This document shows positions 6,382 through 13,814 of a stretch of 64,000 bases of DNA, one piece after another. The translations under genes were made by a program, and so were the position numbers. The notes under the pieces are model-generated. The model did no database searches and had not been told where the DNA came from. It was given only the letters and a program-made list of their open reading frames with translations. Origin of the DNA: Bradyrhizobium sp. WSM1417 (GTDB taxonomy: Bacteria > Pseudomonadota > Alphaproteobacteria > Rhizobiales > Xanthobacteraceae). Positions within the stretch are counted from its first letter, which is position 1, and the number at the start of each line of letters is the position of its first letter. Location: NCBI RefSeq assembly GCF_000515415.1, contig NZ_KI911783.1:3648392-3712391 (forward strand). Direction: 5' to 3'.

Positions 6382-6942
6382 ATGGTGAGGGCGCGCGTGC
6401 GCGGACGTGAGGACGAGTGGACCGACCTGATGCGGTCGGCCATGGCAGGCGATGACGCGGCGTATCATCGTCTGTTGAAGGCGGTCACGCCTGTGCTGCG
6501 CGCTGCCGCGAGGCGCGGCCTGGCGCGGGCCGGGCAGCCTCCCGATCAGGCCGAGGATATCGTGCAGGAGATTCTGTTGGCGGTGCATTTGAAGCGGCAC
6601 ACTTGGGACAGCGAAGCCCCCTTCGCCCCGTGGCTGTTTGCGATCGGCCGCAACAAGCTGATCGACATGCTGCGGCGACGGGGCAGGCGGATTTTCGTCA
6701 ACATCGACGATTTCGCCGAGATATTGCCGGGCGAGGCGCCGCAGGAGACGGCCTCGGCGGGCGAAGTCGCCAGCCAGCTCAATACGCTGCCGCAACGCCA
6801 GCGCGACGTGTTGCAATCGATCGCGGTCGACAGCACCTCGATCAAGGACACGGCGGCGAAATATTCGATGAGCGAGGGCGCGGTGCGGGTCGCGCTGCAT
6901 CGCGGACTTGCGGCGCTGACAGCCAAACTGCGGGACCACTAG
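6382..6942 (+). CDS. ECF-family RNA polymerase sigma factor (SigF type)
   Basis: A sigma factor of 186 residues. Region 2 runs from about residue 15 to 85 (QAEDIVQEILLAVHLKR, then WLFAIGRNKLIDMLRRRGR, the -10 recognition helix). Region 4 covers about 125-180 (LPQRQRDVLQSIAVDSTSIKDTAAKYSMSEGAVRVALHRGLAAL, helix-turn-helix). The next gene starts two bases after the stop and encodes a DUF1109/NrsF-type membrane anti-sigma. This pairing is the layout of Caulobacter sigF-nrsF, where the sigma factor responds to metal or oxidative stress. A 13-bp palindrome precedes the gene. The target genes usual for SigF are not next door here. Confidence 0.88.
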   Translation: MVRARVRGREDEWTDLMRSAMAGDDAAYHRLLKAVTPVLRAAARRGLARAGQPPDQAEDIVQEILLAVHLKRHTWDSEAPFAPWLFAIGRNKLIDMLRRRGRRIFVNIDDFAEILPGEAPQETASAGEVASQLNTLPQRQRDVLQSIAVDSTSIKDTAAKYSMSEGAVRVALHRGLAALTAKLRDH

Positions 6943-6944
6943 TC

Positions 6945-7583
6945 ATGGATACCGATCAACTCATTCGCTCGCTCGCGGCCGACAACGCCCATCGCCCGCC
7001 GCGCGTCGGCGCGGTACTGACCATGGCGCTGCTGGTCGCCGCGCCGCTGTCGATCCTGATCTTCGCCACCTTCCTCGGTGTGCGCCACGACGTGATGAGC
7101 GCGATGCGCAACCCGTTCTTCGACATGAAGTTCGCGGTCACGCTGTCGCTCGCGATCCCGGCGATCATCGTCAGCCTGCATCTGTCGCGTCCCGAGGCCT
7201 TGCTGCGTGGCTGGGGCTGGCTGCTGCTGCTGCCCGTCGGGCTGCTCGCGGTGGCGATCGGCAGCGAGGCGATGATGGCGCCGGCCATGCCGATGACGAT
7301 GCGATTGATGGGCAAGAATTCCAGGGTGTGCCTGTTTGCAATCCCTGCGATGTCGCTGCCGCTGCTTGCGGGGGCCCTGTTCGGCTTGCGCCACGGCGCG
7401 CCGTCGCATCCCGCGCTCGCCGGGGCGCTCGCCGGCCTGGTGTCGGCCGGGCTCGCCGCGACGCTGTACGCCTCGCACTGCACCGATGACTCGCCGCTGT
7501 TCGTAGCGACCTGGTACACGCTCGCCACCGCGTTGGTGACGGCCATTGGCGCGCTGGTGGGGGCGAGGGTCCTACGCTACTAA
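6945..7583 (+). CDS. NrsF/DUF1109-type membrane anti-sigma factor
   Basis: A protein of 212 residues with about six hydrophobic helices (roughly residues 23-43, 63-80, 88-106, 128-147, 155-175, 188-208) and a short cytoplasmic N-terminus, as in the DUF1109 family. In Caulobacter, NrsF holds SigF at the inner membrane and two conserved cysteines are needed for response to stress. Here Cys129 (SRVC) and Cys179 (SHC) are the only cysteines and lie 50 residues apart, the same spacing I recall for the Caulobacter pair. The start is two bases after the sigma stop, so translation is coupled. The start codon of MDTDQLIRSL is the only good choice. Confidence 0.85.
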   Translation: MDTDQLIRSLAADNAHRPPRVGAVLTMALLVAAPLSILIFATFLGVRHDVMSAMRNPFFDMKFAVTLSLAIPAIIVSLHLSRPEALLRGWGWLLLLPVGLLAVAIGSEAMMAPAMPMTMRLMGKNSRVCLFAIPAMSLPLLAGALFGLRHGAPSHPALAGALAGLVSAGLAATLYASHCTDDSPLFVATWYTLATALVTAIGALVGARVLRY

Positions 7584-9918: not shown

Positions 9919-10352
9919 GGTCCCGCCAGTGGTGGATGTCAGCTCAAAAATCTACGTCGCAAGCCTTTAGGTTTGGTATCCTTCGAAACCGAATCCACGC
10001 TGTAGAGCGCGGCAGCAGGGGACGTCGATCGCTCCAGGAATTTGCCGGCGATTAGGTATCGTGTGCGACGCGGTCGAGCCAAAGCAGGGCTTCGGAAGAC
10101 ATATGTCGTGCTAGGCTGCTAAGGTTCCATGCACGTCGGGCCGTCTCTACTGGGACGGCATTGCTCAGGAAAGTGCTTCATTACTATGTTACCGTTCTTG
10201 AGCAAGGCGCCCAGCCGCGGCTGGCAACAGGAAATTTCGCGTATGTGGGGTAGATCACACAGCTTCCCGTATGACTGCGGTAGGTTGAACAATTTTACCC
10301 CTCCCGTCGAACCGTCTGCCGCATCGACCCGACCAACCTTGCGAGACGGTCT
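9919..10352. other. Divergent intergenic region, 434 bases, two short palindromes
   Basis: No convincing gene is present between the diguanylate cyclase and the ECF sigma gene. The region contains a 10-bp palindrome GACATATGTC at 10098-10107 and a 14-bp palindrome CCAGCCGCGGCTGG at 10211-10224. It is richer in A/T than the flanking genes from about 10150 to 10320. I looked for an autoregulatory ECF promoter (GGAAC-type -35 with a -10 about 16 bases later) and found only a weak GGAAAT at about 10230. The promoters of both flanking genes must lie here. Confidence 0.5.
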
Positions 10353-10922
10353 TTGAGCGTGACACAAGCGGCTTCGGACGAGATCCTGATCGCCAGGATC
10401 GCTCAAGGCGACCGGCTCGCCATGCAGGTGCTGTACGGGCGGCACCATGTCAGGGTGTATCGGTTCGGCCTCCGGCTCGTGCGGGACGAGCAGGCGGCGG
10501 AAGACCTCATCAGCGAGGTGTTTCTCGACGTCTGGCGTCAAGCCGGCAAATTCGAGGGCCGATCCGCCGTTTCCACCTGGCTGCTGGCCATTACCCGATT
10601 CAAGGCCCTGTCTGCGCTTCGGCGCAGGAAGGATTTTGAGTTGGACGACGACGCCGCGAACGCGATCGAGGATACGTCCGACAATCCGGAAACGGCGGTG
10701 CAGAAGAAGGATACCAGTGAAGCGTTGCGGGAGTGTCTGACGGGCCTCTCGCCGGACCATCGGGAAATCGTCGATCTCGTCTACTACCACGAGAAGTCCG
10801 TGGAAGAAGTGGCCGAAATCGTTGGCATCCCGGAGAACACTGTGAAGACGCGCTTGTTTTATGCGCGCAAGAAATTGGCCGAACTGCTGAAGGCAGCCGG
10901 CATTGAGCGAGGCTGGCCATGA
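10353..10922 (+). CDS. ECF-family sigma factor (RpoE-like)
   Basis: A protein of 189 residues. Region 2 (about residues 20-95) shows YGRHHVRVYRFGLRLVRDEQAAEDLISEVFLDVWRQ and TWLLAITRFKALSALRRRK. Region 4 (about 125-180) shows LSPDHREIVDLVYYHEKSVEEVAEIVGIPENTVKTRLFYARKKL, a full helix-turn-helix. The start is either the TTG at 10353 or the GTG two codons later; no ATG fits. The stop overlaps the next gene by four bases (ATGA), so sigma and anti-sigma are translationally coupled. A subtilase gene follows 15 bases after the anti-sigma, making a compact three-gene locus. Confidence 0.9.
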   Translation: MSVTQAASDEILIARIAQGDRLAMQVLYGRHHVRVYRFGLRLVRDEQAAEDLISEVFLDVWRQAGKFEGRSAVSTWLLAITRFKALSALRRRKDFELDDDAANAIEDTSDNPETAVQKKDTSEALRECLTGLSPDHREIVDLVYYHEKSVEEVAEIVGIPENTVKTRLFYARKKLAELLKAAGIERGWP

Positions 10923-11614
10923 TGGCTTTGAGCAAGAAGATGCTGGAGCAAGAGCCCGGTGAAATTGAACTGCTGCTGCCGTGGCACGCCGCCGGCACGC
11001 TGAATCCGCGCGATGCGCGCCGCGTCGACGAGGCGCTAGCGCGCGATCCGGAGCTCGCGAAGCAATATGCCGCGATCCGCGGCGAGTATGAAGAGACCAT
11101 CCATCTGAACGAGAGCCTGGGTGCTCCGTCGGCGCGTGCGATGCAGAAGCTGTTCGCCGCGATGGATGCTGAGCCTGCGCGGGCGGCCGGTTCGCTGCCG
11201 CTGTCGGCGCGCATCGCCAGCTTCTTTGCGAGCCTGTCGCCGCGCACTCTGGCCTGGTCGGCGAGCCTTGGCGCCATGGCGCTGGTGCTACAGGCCGGAA
11301 TCATCGGCGCCGTGTTGACGAAGATCCACACTGCGACCTTCCAGACTGCTTCGCTCTCGACCAGCGCTCCGATCACCCGCGACCTCGGAACGACCGTCCC
11401 GCCGGCGCGCGCGCTGGTACGCTTCACGCCCGAGGCGCGCGTCGCCGACATCACGGCATTGCTCGACGGCTACCAGGCTTCGATCATCGGTGATGCCAAG
11501 GGCGGCATGTTCCGCCTCCAGTTCGACAAGGCGATGAGCCGTGACGAACTCACCTCGCTGCTCGGCAAGATGCAGCGCGAGAAGTTCGTCAACCTCGCCG
11601 TCGCAGCGCCATAA
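10919..11614 (+). CDS. Transmembrane anti-sigma factor with prodomain-like outer domain
   Basis: A protein of 231 residues in three parts. Residues 15-60 (LLLPWHAAGTLNPRDARRVD, then LARDPELAKQYAAIRGEYEE) look like an anti-sigma domain, but the CxxC of zinc-binding versions is replaced (DPEL), so it is zinc-free. One membrane helix spans about 112-133. The C-terminal domain, about 160-229, would face the periplasm (ALVRFTPEARVADITALLDG, later GGMFRLQFDKAMSRDELTSLL). Its strand-helix-strand pattern resembles the inhibitory prodomain of subtilisin-like (S8) proteases. The next gene encodes such a protease. The start overlaps the sigma stop by four bases. The prodomain likeness is my reading of the sequence, not a search result. 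Confidence 0.8.
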   Translation: MMALSKKMLEQEPGEIELLLPWHAAGTLNPRDARRVDEALARDPELAKQYAAIRGEYEETIHLNESLGAPSARAMQKLFAAMDAEPARAAGSLPLSARIASFFASLSPRTLAWSASLGAMALVLQAGIIGAVLTKIHTATFQTASLSTSAPITRDLGTTVPPARALVRFTPEARVADITALLDGYQASIIGDAKGGMFRLQFDKAMSRDELTSLLGKMQREKFVNLAVAAP

Positions 11615-11629
11615 GGCGCTTCCAAACCA

Positions 11630-13336
11630 ATGACGCGCAAGTTTGAAAGTGGAGTAAGAGCGGGGGCCTGCGCTTCGTCGGTCGGAGCCGCGCTTCTGCT
11701 CGCCGCCTGTCTCGGCGTCGAGGTCGCGCAGGCGCAGGCGATCATGCGCACGCCGACGATCAGCGTCCCCTCCCGAATGCCGACCGTTTCTCCTGGCATC
11801 GCCGCACGCGTCAGTCCGGGCGTTACCGCCAGAGCGGTGGCCGTCGGTCGCGGTCCCGGCCCGATCGTGACCACGAGGATTTCGGCGCGGATGGGGCCGA
11901 CGCCGGTGCTGCCTTATGCGCGCTACTCCCCGAACCTCTATCCCGCCTGTACTGCGCCCGATCGCGACGCCGCCGGCGAATGCCTGGCGCAGCAGAACGC
12001 AGGCGGCGATGGCTCGGGCAAGTCGGGCAAGAAGACCGCCGCAAAGGGGCGCGGCAACAACACGCCCGTCGCCGCGGATTTGCGCACCTTCGCCGGCGAA
12101 TTCGTCGCCGAGATCGACGGCGGGCTGTCGTTGAGCCAAGCCGACGAGCTTGCGCGTCGCCATGGCCTGACCCGCGTGTCCTCCGAGAATTTTCCGCTGA
12201 TCGGGGCAACGTTCGGATTGTTCCGCATCACCGACGGCCGACCCTCCGCGACGGTGCGGCGTGAATTCGCGGCGGACGGCAGCGTGCGCTCGGTCCAGCC
12301 GAACTTCCGCTACCTGCTTCAGGACCAGAAATCGTCGGTGCCGACCGAGGGGGATCCCGCGCAATATGCGCTGGCCAAGCTCCGCCTGCCGCAGGCACAT
12401 ACTCTCGCGCATGGCGCCAATGTGACGGTCGCCGTGATCGACTCCGGCATCGACGTCCAACATCCCGAACTTGCCAACTCCATTGCCGACAATTTCGATG
12501 CGCTCGGCATTGCCGAGGGCCCGCACATTCACGGCACCGGCATTGCCGGCGCCATCGTGGCGCATGCCAAGCTGATGGGCAGCGCGCCCGAGGCGCGCCT
12601 CATCGCCATCCGCGCCTTCGGCGGCACCACCGGCGGGGCCGAGAGCTCGTCCTACATCATCCTGCGCTCGCTGAATTATGCCGCCGAGCACGGGGCGCAG
12701 ATCGTCAACATGAGCTTTGCCGGTCCGAAAGATGCGGTGATCGAGCGGGCCATCGCGGCGACCGCCGCGCGTGGCCTAGTGCTGATCGCGGCCGCCGGCA
12801 ATGCCGGCGCGAAGTCGCCGCCGCTCTATCCGGCCGCCAATCCCAACGTGATCGCGGTTAGCGCGACCGACCAGCAGGACAGGCTGTTCACCGCCTCCAA
12901 CCGCGGCAACTACATCGCGGTCGCGGCCCCCGGCGTCGATATCTTCCTGCCGGCGCCTGACGGCAAATACCAGATGACGTCGGGCACCTCATTCTCGGCC
13001 GCCTATGTCTCCGGCGTCGCGGCGCTGCTGCTCGAGCGCAATTACGCCCTGAAGCCGGAAGCGCTGCGCACGACGCTGGCGAAGACGGCGCGCGACCTCG
13101 GTTCACCCGGCCGTGATGATCTGTTCGGCGACGGTGAGGCCGACGCGTTTGCCGCGGTCATGGCCGTTCCTGCCGCCGGCGCGACGCCGGTCGCGGCCGC
13201 CTCCGGTACAACAAAACGTGAAGATATCGGGAAGCGTCGCGACGAGCCTGGCGTCCGCGCATTAGAGCAACCTTCGTTGTCGAGCACCGAGGATAAAGCC
13301 ACGGTTTCTCAAGCGGATAGACCGGCGACGCGATAG
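11630..13336 (+). CDS. Exported S8 (subtilisin-like) serine protease
   Basis: A protein of 568 residues. The N-terminus is hydrophobic (GAALLLAACLGVEVAQAQA). The LAAC at 24-27 could be a lipobox, or signal peptidase I could cut after AQA. A Pro/Arg/Ser-rich linker (40-145) and a prodomain-like part (about 150-230, ending VRSVQPNFRY) come before the catalytic domain. The triad is complete: Asp271 (VIDSGID), His301 (HGTGIAG), Ser454 (GTSFSAA), with the oxyanion Asn391 (AAGNAGA). A 100-residue tail with no clear fold follows the catalytic domain. The gene is 15 bases after the anti-sigma gene. It is probably periplasmic or attached to a membrane, and may process the anti-sigma or be a target gene of the sigma factor. 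Confidence 0.92.
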   Translation: MTRKFESGVRAGACASSVGAALLLAACLGVEVAQAQAIMRTPTISVPSRMPTVSPGIAARVSPGVTARAVAVGRGPGPIVTTRISARMGPTPVLPYARYSPNLYPACTAPDRDAAGECLAQQNAGGDGSGKSGKKTAAKGRGNNTPVAADLRTFAGEFVAEIDGGLSLSQADELARRHGLTRVSSENFPLIGATFGLFRITDGRPSATVRREFAADGSVRSVQPNFRYLLQDQKSSVPTEGDPAQYALAKLRLPQAHTLAHGANVTVAVIDSGIDVQHPELANSIADNFDALGIAEGPHIHGTGIAGAIVAHAKLMGSAPEARLIAIRAFGGTTGGAESSSYIILRSLNYAAEHGAQIVNMSFAGPKDAVIERAIAATAARGLVLIAAAGNAGAKSPPLYPAANPNVIAVSATDQQDRLFTASNRGNYIAVAAPGVDIFLPAPDGKYQMTSGTSFSAAYVSGVAALLLERNYALKPEALRTTLAKTARDLGSPGRDDLFGDGEADAFAAVMAVPAAGATPVAAASGTTKREDIGKRRDEPGVRALEQPSLSSTEDKATVSQADRPATR

Positions 13337-13814
13337 CGGCTGTGACAACTTTGCGCGCGGCGCGAAGGTCGAAAAATCAAACGCCGCGTTGAACGTTCGG
13401 CCCGCTGCCACGACCAAATTATGTGGGAGCGGTTATCCCTCCCCATAAGTCATATTAGGCGCGAGCGCCCATCCACCCCAAGCGCCCATATGGCTCGACC
13501 CGTCCGGTTGTCCCCCCGGACGGGTCTTTTCTTTTTGACGTCCAATTCCTCGAAGCCCTACGCGAGATCAGCTTCCGGTTGAGAGATCGTGGCTCACTCA
13601 GCGCGACCGCTCCGCCCGCATGCCGCAAGCGCGCTATGCTTGTGCGAAGCTTGACTCCAAAACCCCTTGAATCTCCGCACGACTACGGAGTTTGGCGACG
13701 AAAACATCGTCGTTGCTGGACAAGTCAAAACTTTTCCACAAAATATTCACGTCGCGTCTAAATTGATTCGTGTGCGTTGCGTCGCGTCCGTATTTTCTCC
13801 TGACGGGCTGATTT
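13337..13814. other. Intergenic region, 478 bases, possible small RNA
   Basis: No protein gene is supported. The first 200 bases contain several small dyads: GGGAG/CTCCC at about 13425-13440, and GGCG/CGCC flanking CGAG at about 13458. These are followed by a strong intrinsic terminator at 13497-13536. A TTGAAC at 13389-13394 could serve as a -35 box. The stretch between it and the terminator could be a small RNA of about 110-130 bases with C-rich single-stranded segments (CCCTCCCC, CCACCCC). Alternatively it is only the 3' untranslated region of the protease gene. The last 270 bases show nothing beyond the likely promoter of the next gene. Confidence 0.45.
13497..13536 (+). terminator. Intrinsic (Rho-independent) terminator
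   Basis: The arms GACCCGTCCGG and CCGGACGGGTC are a perfect 11-bp stem with an 8-base loop, followed at once by TTTTCTTTTT. It is 160 bases beyond the subtilase stop, so it ends either that operon or a small RNA encoded just before it. Confidence 0.9.

Follow-up and report, generated by a model that had tools for sequence, protein, structure and literature searches.

The locus described here occupies positions 10353–13336 of a 64,000-nucleotide stretch of Bradyrhizobium sp. WSM1417 (contig NZ_KI911783.1, positions 3,648,392 to 3,712,391), which we refer to as the window. Three genes lie here, all on the forward strand: one for an extracytoplasmic function (ECF) sigma factor, one for an anti-sigma factor that crosses the membrane once, and one for an exported protease of the subtilisin-like S8 family. 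A first-pass annotation, made from the sequence alone, had described these genes as packed in one locus, and this is borne out by the gene positions and by domain searches. The sigma factor (10353–10922, 189 amino acids, TTG start) matches NCBIfam NF009168 over residues 1–189 of 189 with 350.6 bits (cut-off 236). Both PF04542 (Sigma70_r2) and PF08281 (Sigma70_r4_2) score above their cut-offs and a promoter-like site lies upstream, so that regions 2 and 4, with none of the other regions, and a putative self-promoter are found, as in an ECF factor. The sigma and anti-sigma genes overlap by four bases. The genome itself holds one clear copy, and the closest named homologues, judged from the best 120 of 7807, are Bradyrhizobium proteins.

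The anti-sigma factor (10919–11614, 231 amino acids) consists of a cytoplasmic anti-sigma domain, one membrane span, a linker and an outer domain. The span is predicted at about residues 115–133 (11261–11317) from the hydropathy maximum, the most hydrophobic 19-residue stretch beginning at residue 115, with a predicted single-pass topology. The zf-HC2 match of the window protein is weak (E = 0.013, 16.0 bits versus a cut-off of 22.2), as are its NCBIfam anti-sigma matches, which makes it a candidate class I (ZAS-like) anti-sigma factor, a class defined by an N-terminal domain related to zf-HC2. Of the 89 aligned relatives, 58 match zf-HC2 with E ≤ 0.05, and there are relatives that score above the cut-off, for example L275 (46.2 bits). 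By eye, the HxxxCxxC zinc motif is missing from the window protein and visible in some outer relatives. A match to TetR_C_31 within the anti-sigma domain (22.8 bits, below the cut-off of 27.4; four of the 89 relatives) was taken as chance. In two genera, five anti-sigma factors without an adjacent S8 gene (L150, L153, L159, L164 and L177) have long proline-/alanine-rich linkers and total 274–304 amino acids, compared with 231 in the window; their S8-bearing relatives in these genera are likewise long (233–267 amino acids).

The protease (11630–13336, 568 amino acids) matches PF00082 with 154 bits, and a signal peptide is seen by eye. The catalytic triad and oxyanion asparagine are intact, with Asp271, His301 and Asn391 conserved in 42 of 42 aligned relatives and Ser454 in 41. 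Its own prodomain comprises residues 153–229 (12086–12316), in agreement with the segment of about 150–230 proposed earlier; the model blocks have predicted local distance difference test (pLDDT) values of 91–98, and PF22148, the fervidolysin-type prodomain family, is matched in 26 of the 42 relatives (E ≤ 1).

The outer domain of the anti-sigma factor (residues 163–231, 11405–11611) is predicted by AlphaFold2 to adopt a β-α-β-β-α-β fold (elements at residues 164–229, mean pLDDT 88.1), which agrees with that of solved subtilase prodomains and with the strand–helix–strand pattern first noticed at about residues 160–229. A lack of structural match to prodomains, which would speak against the first-pass idea, was looked for by structure comparison and was not encountered. 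The fold by itself nevertheless proves little and is not taken as sole proof, because a Foldseek search with the outer domain gave nothing under E = 0.001 and ranked RRM domains first, with the PC1/3 prodomain in fifth place. More weight falls on profile–profile comparison. Aligned with hhalign, the outer domain matches the prodomain of its partner protease with a probability of 93.4% and a score of 38.8, whereas 200 column-shuffled controls reach at most 16.0 and 2.9%. An independent set of 18 outer-domain sequences from outside the order gives 87.8% to the S8 prodomain. PF22148 is also the Pfam family with the most outer-domain matches (14 of 88 members score E ≤ 1, the best of them 5.7e-5); it is found in five of 89 full-length anti-sigma factors at E ≤ 0.05, and in one of the ten distant relatives scanned (L275) it exceeds its cut-off (24.7 versus 21 bits). 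The window outer domain itself has no Pfam match. A PF22148 scan of 11 genomes gave one match, within another S8 protein (L205 in genome G314), and neither the window protease nor the window anti-sigma factor reached E = 0.1 in it. At E ≤ 10, single-sequence searches with the S8-prodomain profile gave weak hits to 28 of 232 anti-sigma frames, compared with 12 among 16150 other frames, and several of the hits lie outside the domain. The outer-domain profile, compared with sequences of solved structures, gave three matches up to E = 10, none a prodomain, the best (E = 0.08) being to an RNA-processing protein.

A peptidoglycan-binding domain of the SPOR type, sensing the state of the cell wall, would have a similar overall fold, and PF05036 is matched in ten of the 88 outer-domain members at E ≤ 1 (best 9.3e-5). 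The profile match to SPOR, however, spans just 33 columns at 56.7%, against 93.4% for the S8 prodomain, and it falls to 5.4% over 24 columns with the 18 outside-order sequences; in the full-length scans at E ≤ 0.05, SPOR appears in one of 89 members compared with five for PF22148. With no whole-domain match obtained, profile comparison led us to reject a SPOR assignment for the outer domain, which we regard as very improbable. Judged by these profiles, the outer domain is remotely related to the fervidolysin-type S8 prodomain. In 69 of 89 sequences it stops exactly three residues past its final strand, and the longest tail has ten residues; in the S8 prodomain, by contrast, the strand runs on to residue 229 and a linker follows. 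Because the C-terminal tail that reaches the active site is missing, we class the domain as prodomain-like rather than as a prodomain.

About ten residues past the membrane span lies a second feature, the sequence FQTAS (residues 141–145, 11339–11353). All 80 S8-bearing Bradyrhizobium contigs have the pattern [FY]xTAS. In two related genera in which S8 has been lost, the strict motif is found in six of six loci with an adjacent S8 gene and in none of 17 without, a set from which L412, which ends too soon, was set aside and in which S8 adjacency is the only information for the newly fetched loci. The motif is altered in S8-less branches scattered over the tree. As a pattern of conservation, then, this juxtamembrane FxTAS motif, which we report here as new, largely tracks S8, and it does so better than the outer domain does. 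In one Bradyrhizobium locus (L424, G314) the anti-sigma gene is followed by the Rhizobiales-2 RNA described below with no S8 gene between; the motif is kept as FETAS, the loss is perhaps recent, and another S8 protein (L205) is encoded elsewhere.

At E ≤ 0.01, homologues of the anti-sigma factor were found in 79 of 119 genomes from the family and in 53 of 199 from the order; a subset of the matching loci was fetched. Twelve locus identifiers were excluded beforehand (eight short copies that were fetched again, the non-homologue L002, and the weak or cut L183–L185). Of the 112 family and order loci, five end too soon. The three-gene order, whose conservation the first-pass annotation suggested checking, is found in 87 of the 107 determinate loci, where S8 directly follows the pair; two loci have it upstream, and in 18 S8 is absent, the outcome that was to count against the proposal (L200, with only 973 bases downstream, is doubtful among them). 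All 80 named contigs retained have S8 downstream; 79 are titled Bradyrhizobium or Bradyrhizobiaceae and one Frankia. In the last (L093, titled Frankia sp. RB7) the module resembles that of Bradyrhizobium, with 88% identity, and the record is therefore probably mislabelled or contaminated. Searches at E ≤ 1e-5 matched 17 of 289 genomes across the class and 39 of 398 across the phylum. Within the class but outside the order, all 14 fetched loci whose anti-sigma factor has an outer domain also have S8 nearby (L237–L247 and L275–L277; in L246 the anti-sigma gene is on the opposite strand), and in five further matches (L248–L252) no S8 gene is seen and the outer domain is missing by eye. Outside the class, six of 13 genomes were fetched and S8 is near in five of the six loci, L278 being the exception. 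A whole-genome search of 15 genomes without an adjacent copy gave no S8 match at E ≤ 1e-5 in six (G028, G067, G072, G076, G089 and G093); each of the remaining nine holds a near or a weak relative elsewhere. In the tree, the S8-less loci fall in several separate branches.

The promoter-like site of the sigma operon consists of GAACC (10309–10313), 16 bases and CGAC (10330–10333), and thus spans 10309–10333. With exactly this spacing it lies ahead of the sigma gene in 86 of the 108 loci counted, a count that excludes 79 of the 80 named, mostly Bradyrhizobium, contigs; about 0.3 are expected from shuffles. It replaced an earlier guess, GAAC-CGTC, which was found in 16 of 110 loci against 4.9 in shuffled sequence. 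The extended pattern GAACC-N16-CGACYAA occurs 114 times in nine Bradyrhizobium genomes, compared with 11 for a reversed control pattern. In the genome of the window strain, such sites (L312, L316, L319, L321 and L322) precede genes for a Band 7 protein, an exported peptidoglycan-binding protein, a membrane protein, an exported TPR protein and an unknown protein. These may constitute an envelope regulon, the candidates having been identified by reading translations and by Pfam on partial sequences, with some sites lying in coding sequence. One site identical in several genomes (L317) is inside the coding sequence of a cold-shock protein and was discarded. We examined nine S8 copies located away from the sigma genes, and in three of these (G053, G079 and G100; orthologous, from one genus and representing one event) S8 stands second behind GAACC-N16-CGAC. 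The gene it follows there (L352, L353 and L354) encodes a conserved protein of about 220 amino acids of unknown role. Other S8 genes (L348–L351) lie within open frames of 1675–1754 codons, which may exceed the true protein lengths.

Downstream of the protease gene lies a Rhizobiales-2 RNA (RF01723, 13425–13526, 96.6 bits versus a gathering score of 40), which ends in an intrinsic terminator (13497–13526 plus a T tract). The family has a candidate-table entry in the 2010 paper that proposed it (PMC2864571). The RNA is preceded by a promoter-like site (13391–13418) composed of GAAC (13391–13394), 16 bases and CGACCAAA (13411–13418). GAAC-N16/17-CGAC ends 10–11 bases before the RNA in all 24 readable operon copies (L425 is too short to read; shuffled mean 0.06) and stands at that place in none of the five second RNA copies read. 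Of 20 module loci that were scanned, 16 contain the RNA, among them S8-less ones in which it follows the anti-sigma gene; it is not found in L139, L145, L161 and L199 from other genera; among the 16, the second element is TGAC or altered in several (L137, L150, L159, L177, L197 and L403–L405). All 25 Bradyrhizobium genomes examined have a high-scoring copy (≥93 bits), as against none of 16 genomes of other families, and S8 is nearby in 24 of those 25 loci, the exception being L424. That a promoter-like element resembling the one of the sigma operon precedes this orphan RNA is new here. Because the RNA directly follows the operon behind a site of that type, it is probably a small RNA transcribed by this sigma factor. 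Elsewhere in the window (6382–7583), a second ECF-like sigma gene is followed by a gene for a multi-span membrane protein, which we take to resemble anti-sigma factors of the NrsF/DUF1109 type.

From these motifs, the locus appears to be an ECF sigma/anti-sigma system that regulates itself and comes with a subtilase of its own. Since the gene set is widely conserved, S8 probably contributes to setting or reporting the sigma switch. Our preferred reading, to which we assign a probability of about 0.4, is that S8 engages the ectodomain of the anti-sigma factor and cuts it near FxTAS. The sigma factor would transcribe its own operon, yielding the anti-sigma factor, the exported protease and probably also the Rhizobiales-2 RNA. 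Mature S8 could then recognize the outer domain through the surface that its own prodomain had occupied and, because the outer domain ends before a tail that would block the active site, S8 is proposed to stay active and free to act on FxTAS. Cleavage in this segment would be the first cut on the way to freeing the sigma factor, which in turn would produce more protease and more RNA. A specific form of this model is more tentative and on balance unlikely: the tail-less prodomain relative would be a docking handle that S8 seats in the former place of its own prodomain, with its active site left open for FxTAS, making S8 a dedicated operon-encoded site-1 protease, and the maturation of S8, with loss of its own prodomain, would be the signal that switches the sigma factor on and so leads to more S8 and more Rhizobiales-2 RNA.

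Several observations weigh against cleavage by S8 at FxTAS. On the side of homology, the aligned identity between outer domain and S8 prodomain is about 5%, searches with single sequences give only weak hits (best E = 0.08), and the 18 outside-order outer domains do not match the N-terminal parts of their own proteases when just five of these are used (2.2%). The motif is imperfect as a marker: among 69 loci with an adjacent S8 gene the strict form is missing in 29 and the loose form in 11, and FxTAS is kept without adjacent S8 in two loci (L151 and the Bradyrhizobium locus L424). The looser pattern separates 58 of 69 loci with adjacent S8 from one of ten without (Fisher 7e-6), an exploratory figure from a pattern formulated after viewing that same set, and on later loci only it is found in three of three with S8 and three of 12 without. 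Four of the ten S8-less loci are also less clear-cut: weak S8 relatives occur elsewhere in the genomes that carry L173, L197 and L198, and the genome of L172 has a second, S8-bearing module (L142). Of the nine S8 copies away from the sigma genes, six show no promoter-like site of this kind upstream, including a further S8 of G053, G079 and G100 and one copy at a contig end (L347), and related genomes are not independent. The strongest result against a role purely as protease ligand is the persistence of the outer domain in lineages that lack the S8 gene. Faster evolution of the domain after S8 loss was tested for with a negative result: distance ratios (without/with S8) are 0.99 to 1.33 in eight comparisons, in one of which S8 is relocated rather than lost, against 0.96 to 1.52 for the cytoplasmic domain, and the outer-domain ratio is the lower in six of the eight. 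As the domain does not decay, it must have some use without S8 or be needed for folding or stability. The first-pass interpretation, in which a prodomain-like domain would be a natural ligand or first substrate of the neighbouring protease, is partly supported: the remote relation to prodomains and the conserved three-gene order hold, with S8 missing in a minority of loci; and because the domain ends before the active-site tail and persists without S8, the simple ligand idea has to be qualified.

Alternatively, S8 may be just a member of the regulon, an envelope protease, while the outer domain serves another ligand or protease and shares only ancestry with prodomains, the link with FxTAS then reflecting shared history or another partner. 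The retention of the domain at ordinary rates, the six of 15 tested genomes without any S8 match, the motif sites before other envelope genes and the FxTAS sequences of L151 and L424 would all fit. That the best match among the families compared by profile is the prodomain of the very partner protease, that the gene set recurs across classes and that FxTAS differs in several separate S8-less branches are harder to reconcile with it, and we consider this explanation somewhat improbable. Homeostatic feedback offers a different use for binding: free S8 would bind the prodomain-like domain and shield the anti-sigma factor, keeping the sigma factor off, until envelope damage occupies S8 and exposes the anti-sigma factor to other proteases, freeing the sigma factor to make more S8. 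Prodomains do bind their proteases, an operon of the sigma factor itself, in which S8 lies, is a usual location for a feedback product, and without a blocking tail binding need not halt proteolysis. Loss of S8 would, however, leave such a system permanently on, yet S8-less lineages retain both sigma and anti-sigma factor, and a juxtamembrane motif that tracks S8 receives no account; feedback seems to us somewhat improbable too, and both of these explanations are still live. The lineages that have lost S8 provide natural controls.

No description of this design was found in the open-licence PMC literature searched, and mention elsewhere is possible. With many membrane-bound anti-sigma factors, neither the external signal nor the protease that cuts first is known. 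The present three-gene set is widespread and points to candidates for the protease, for a docking domain and for the cut region, and the orphan Rhizobiales-2 family gains a likely transcription factor. In proteolysis of the RseA/DegS/RseP and RsiW/RsiP types, a membrane anti-sigma factor of an autoregulated ECF sigma factor receives its first cut outside the membrane. The present system is alike in its membrane-bound anti-sigma factor, its predicted autoregulation and the expected outside cut, and differs in that the candidate first protease is a subtilase from the same operon, to whose prodomain a domain of the anti-sigma factor is related. For RsiP, site-1 cleavage by signal peptidase is reported (PMC8844934). 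For sigma factors of the ECF54 type, nearby subtilases were proposed in systems without an anti-sigma factor (PMC8999054). The subtilase close to an ECF sigma gene is shared with our locus, which additionally has an anti-sigma factor with a prodomain-like domain. In fold and remote sequence relation, the outer domain resembles subtilase prodomains (fervidolysin-type PF22148, PC1/3 and subtilisin) and the stand-alone I9 inhibitors such as POIA1, whose role is inhibition; unlike these, it sits on a separate membrane-anchored regulator and has no inhibitory C-terminal tail. In eukaryotes, the site-1 protease (S1P) of SREBP is a subtilase that makes the first cut of a membrane regulator; we know of no prodomain-like part on that substrate, and the likeness is an analogy only. 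A dedicated outer sensor domain is reported for the RsgI anti-sigma factors of clostridia, which sense carbohydrates (PMC12484212, PMC3990059). Our anti-sigma factor shares with RsgI a dedicated outer domain and differs from its carbohydrate sensing. RsgI is also said to undergo self-cleavage, whereas here a partner protease would make the cut.

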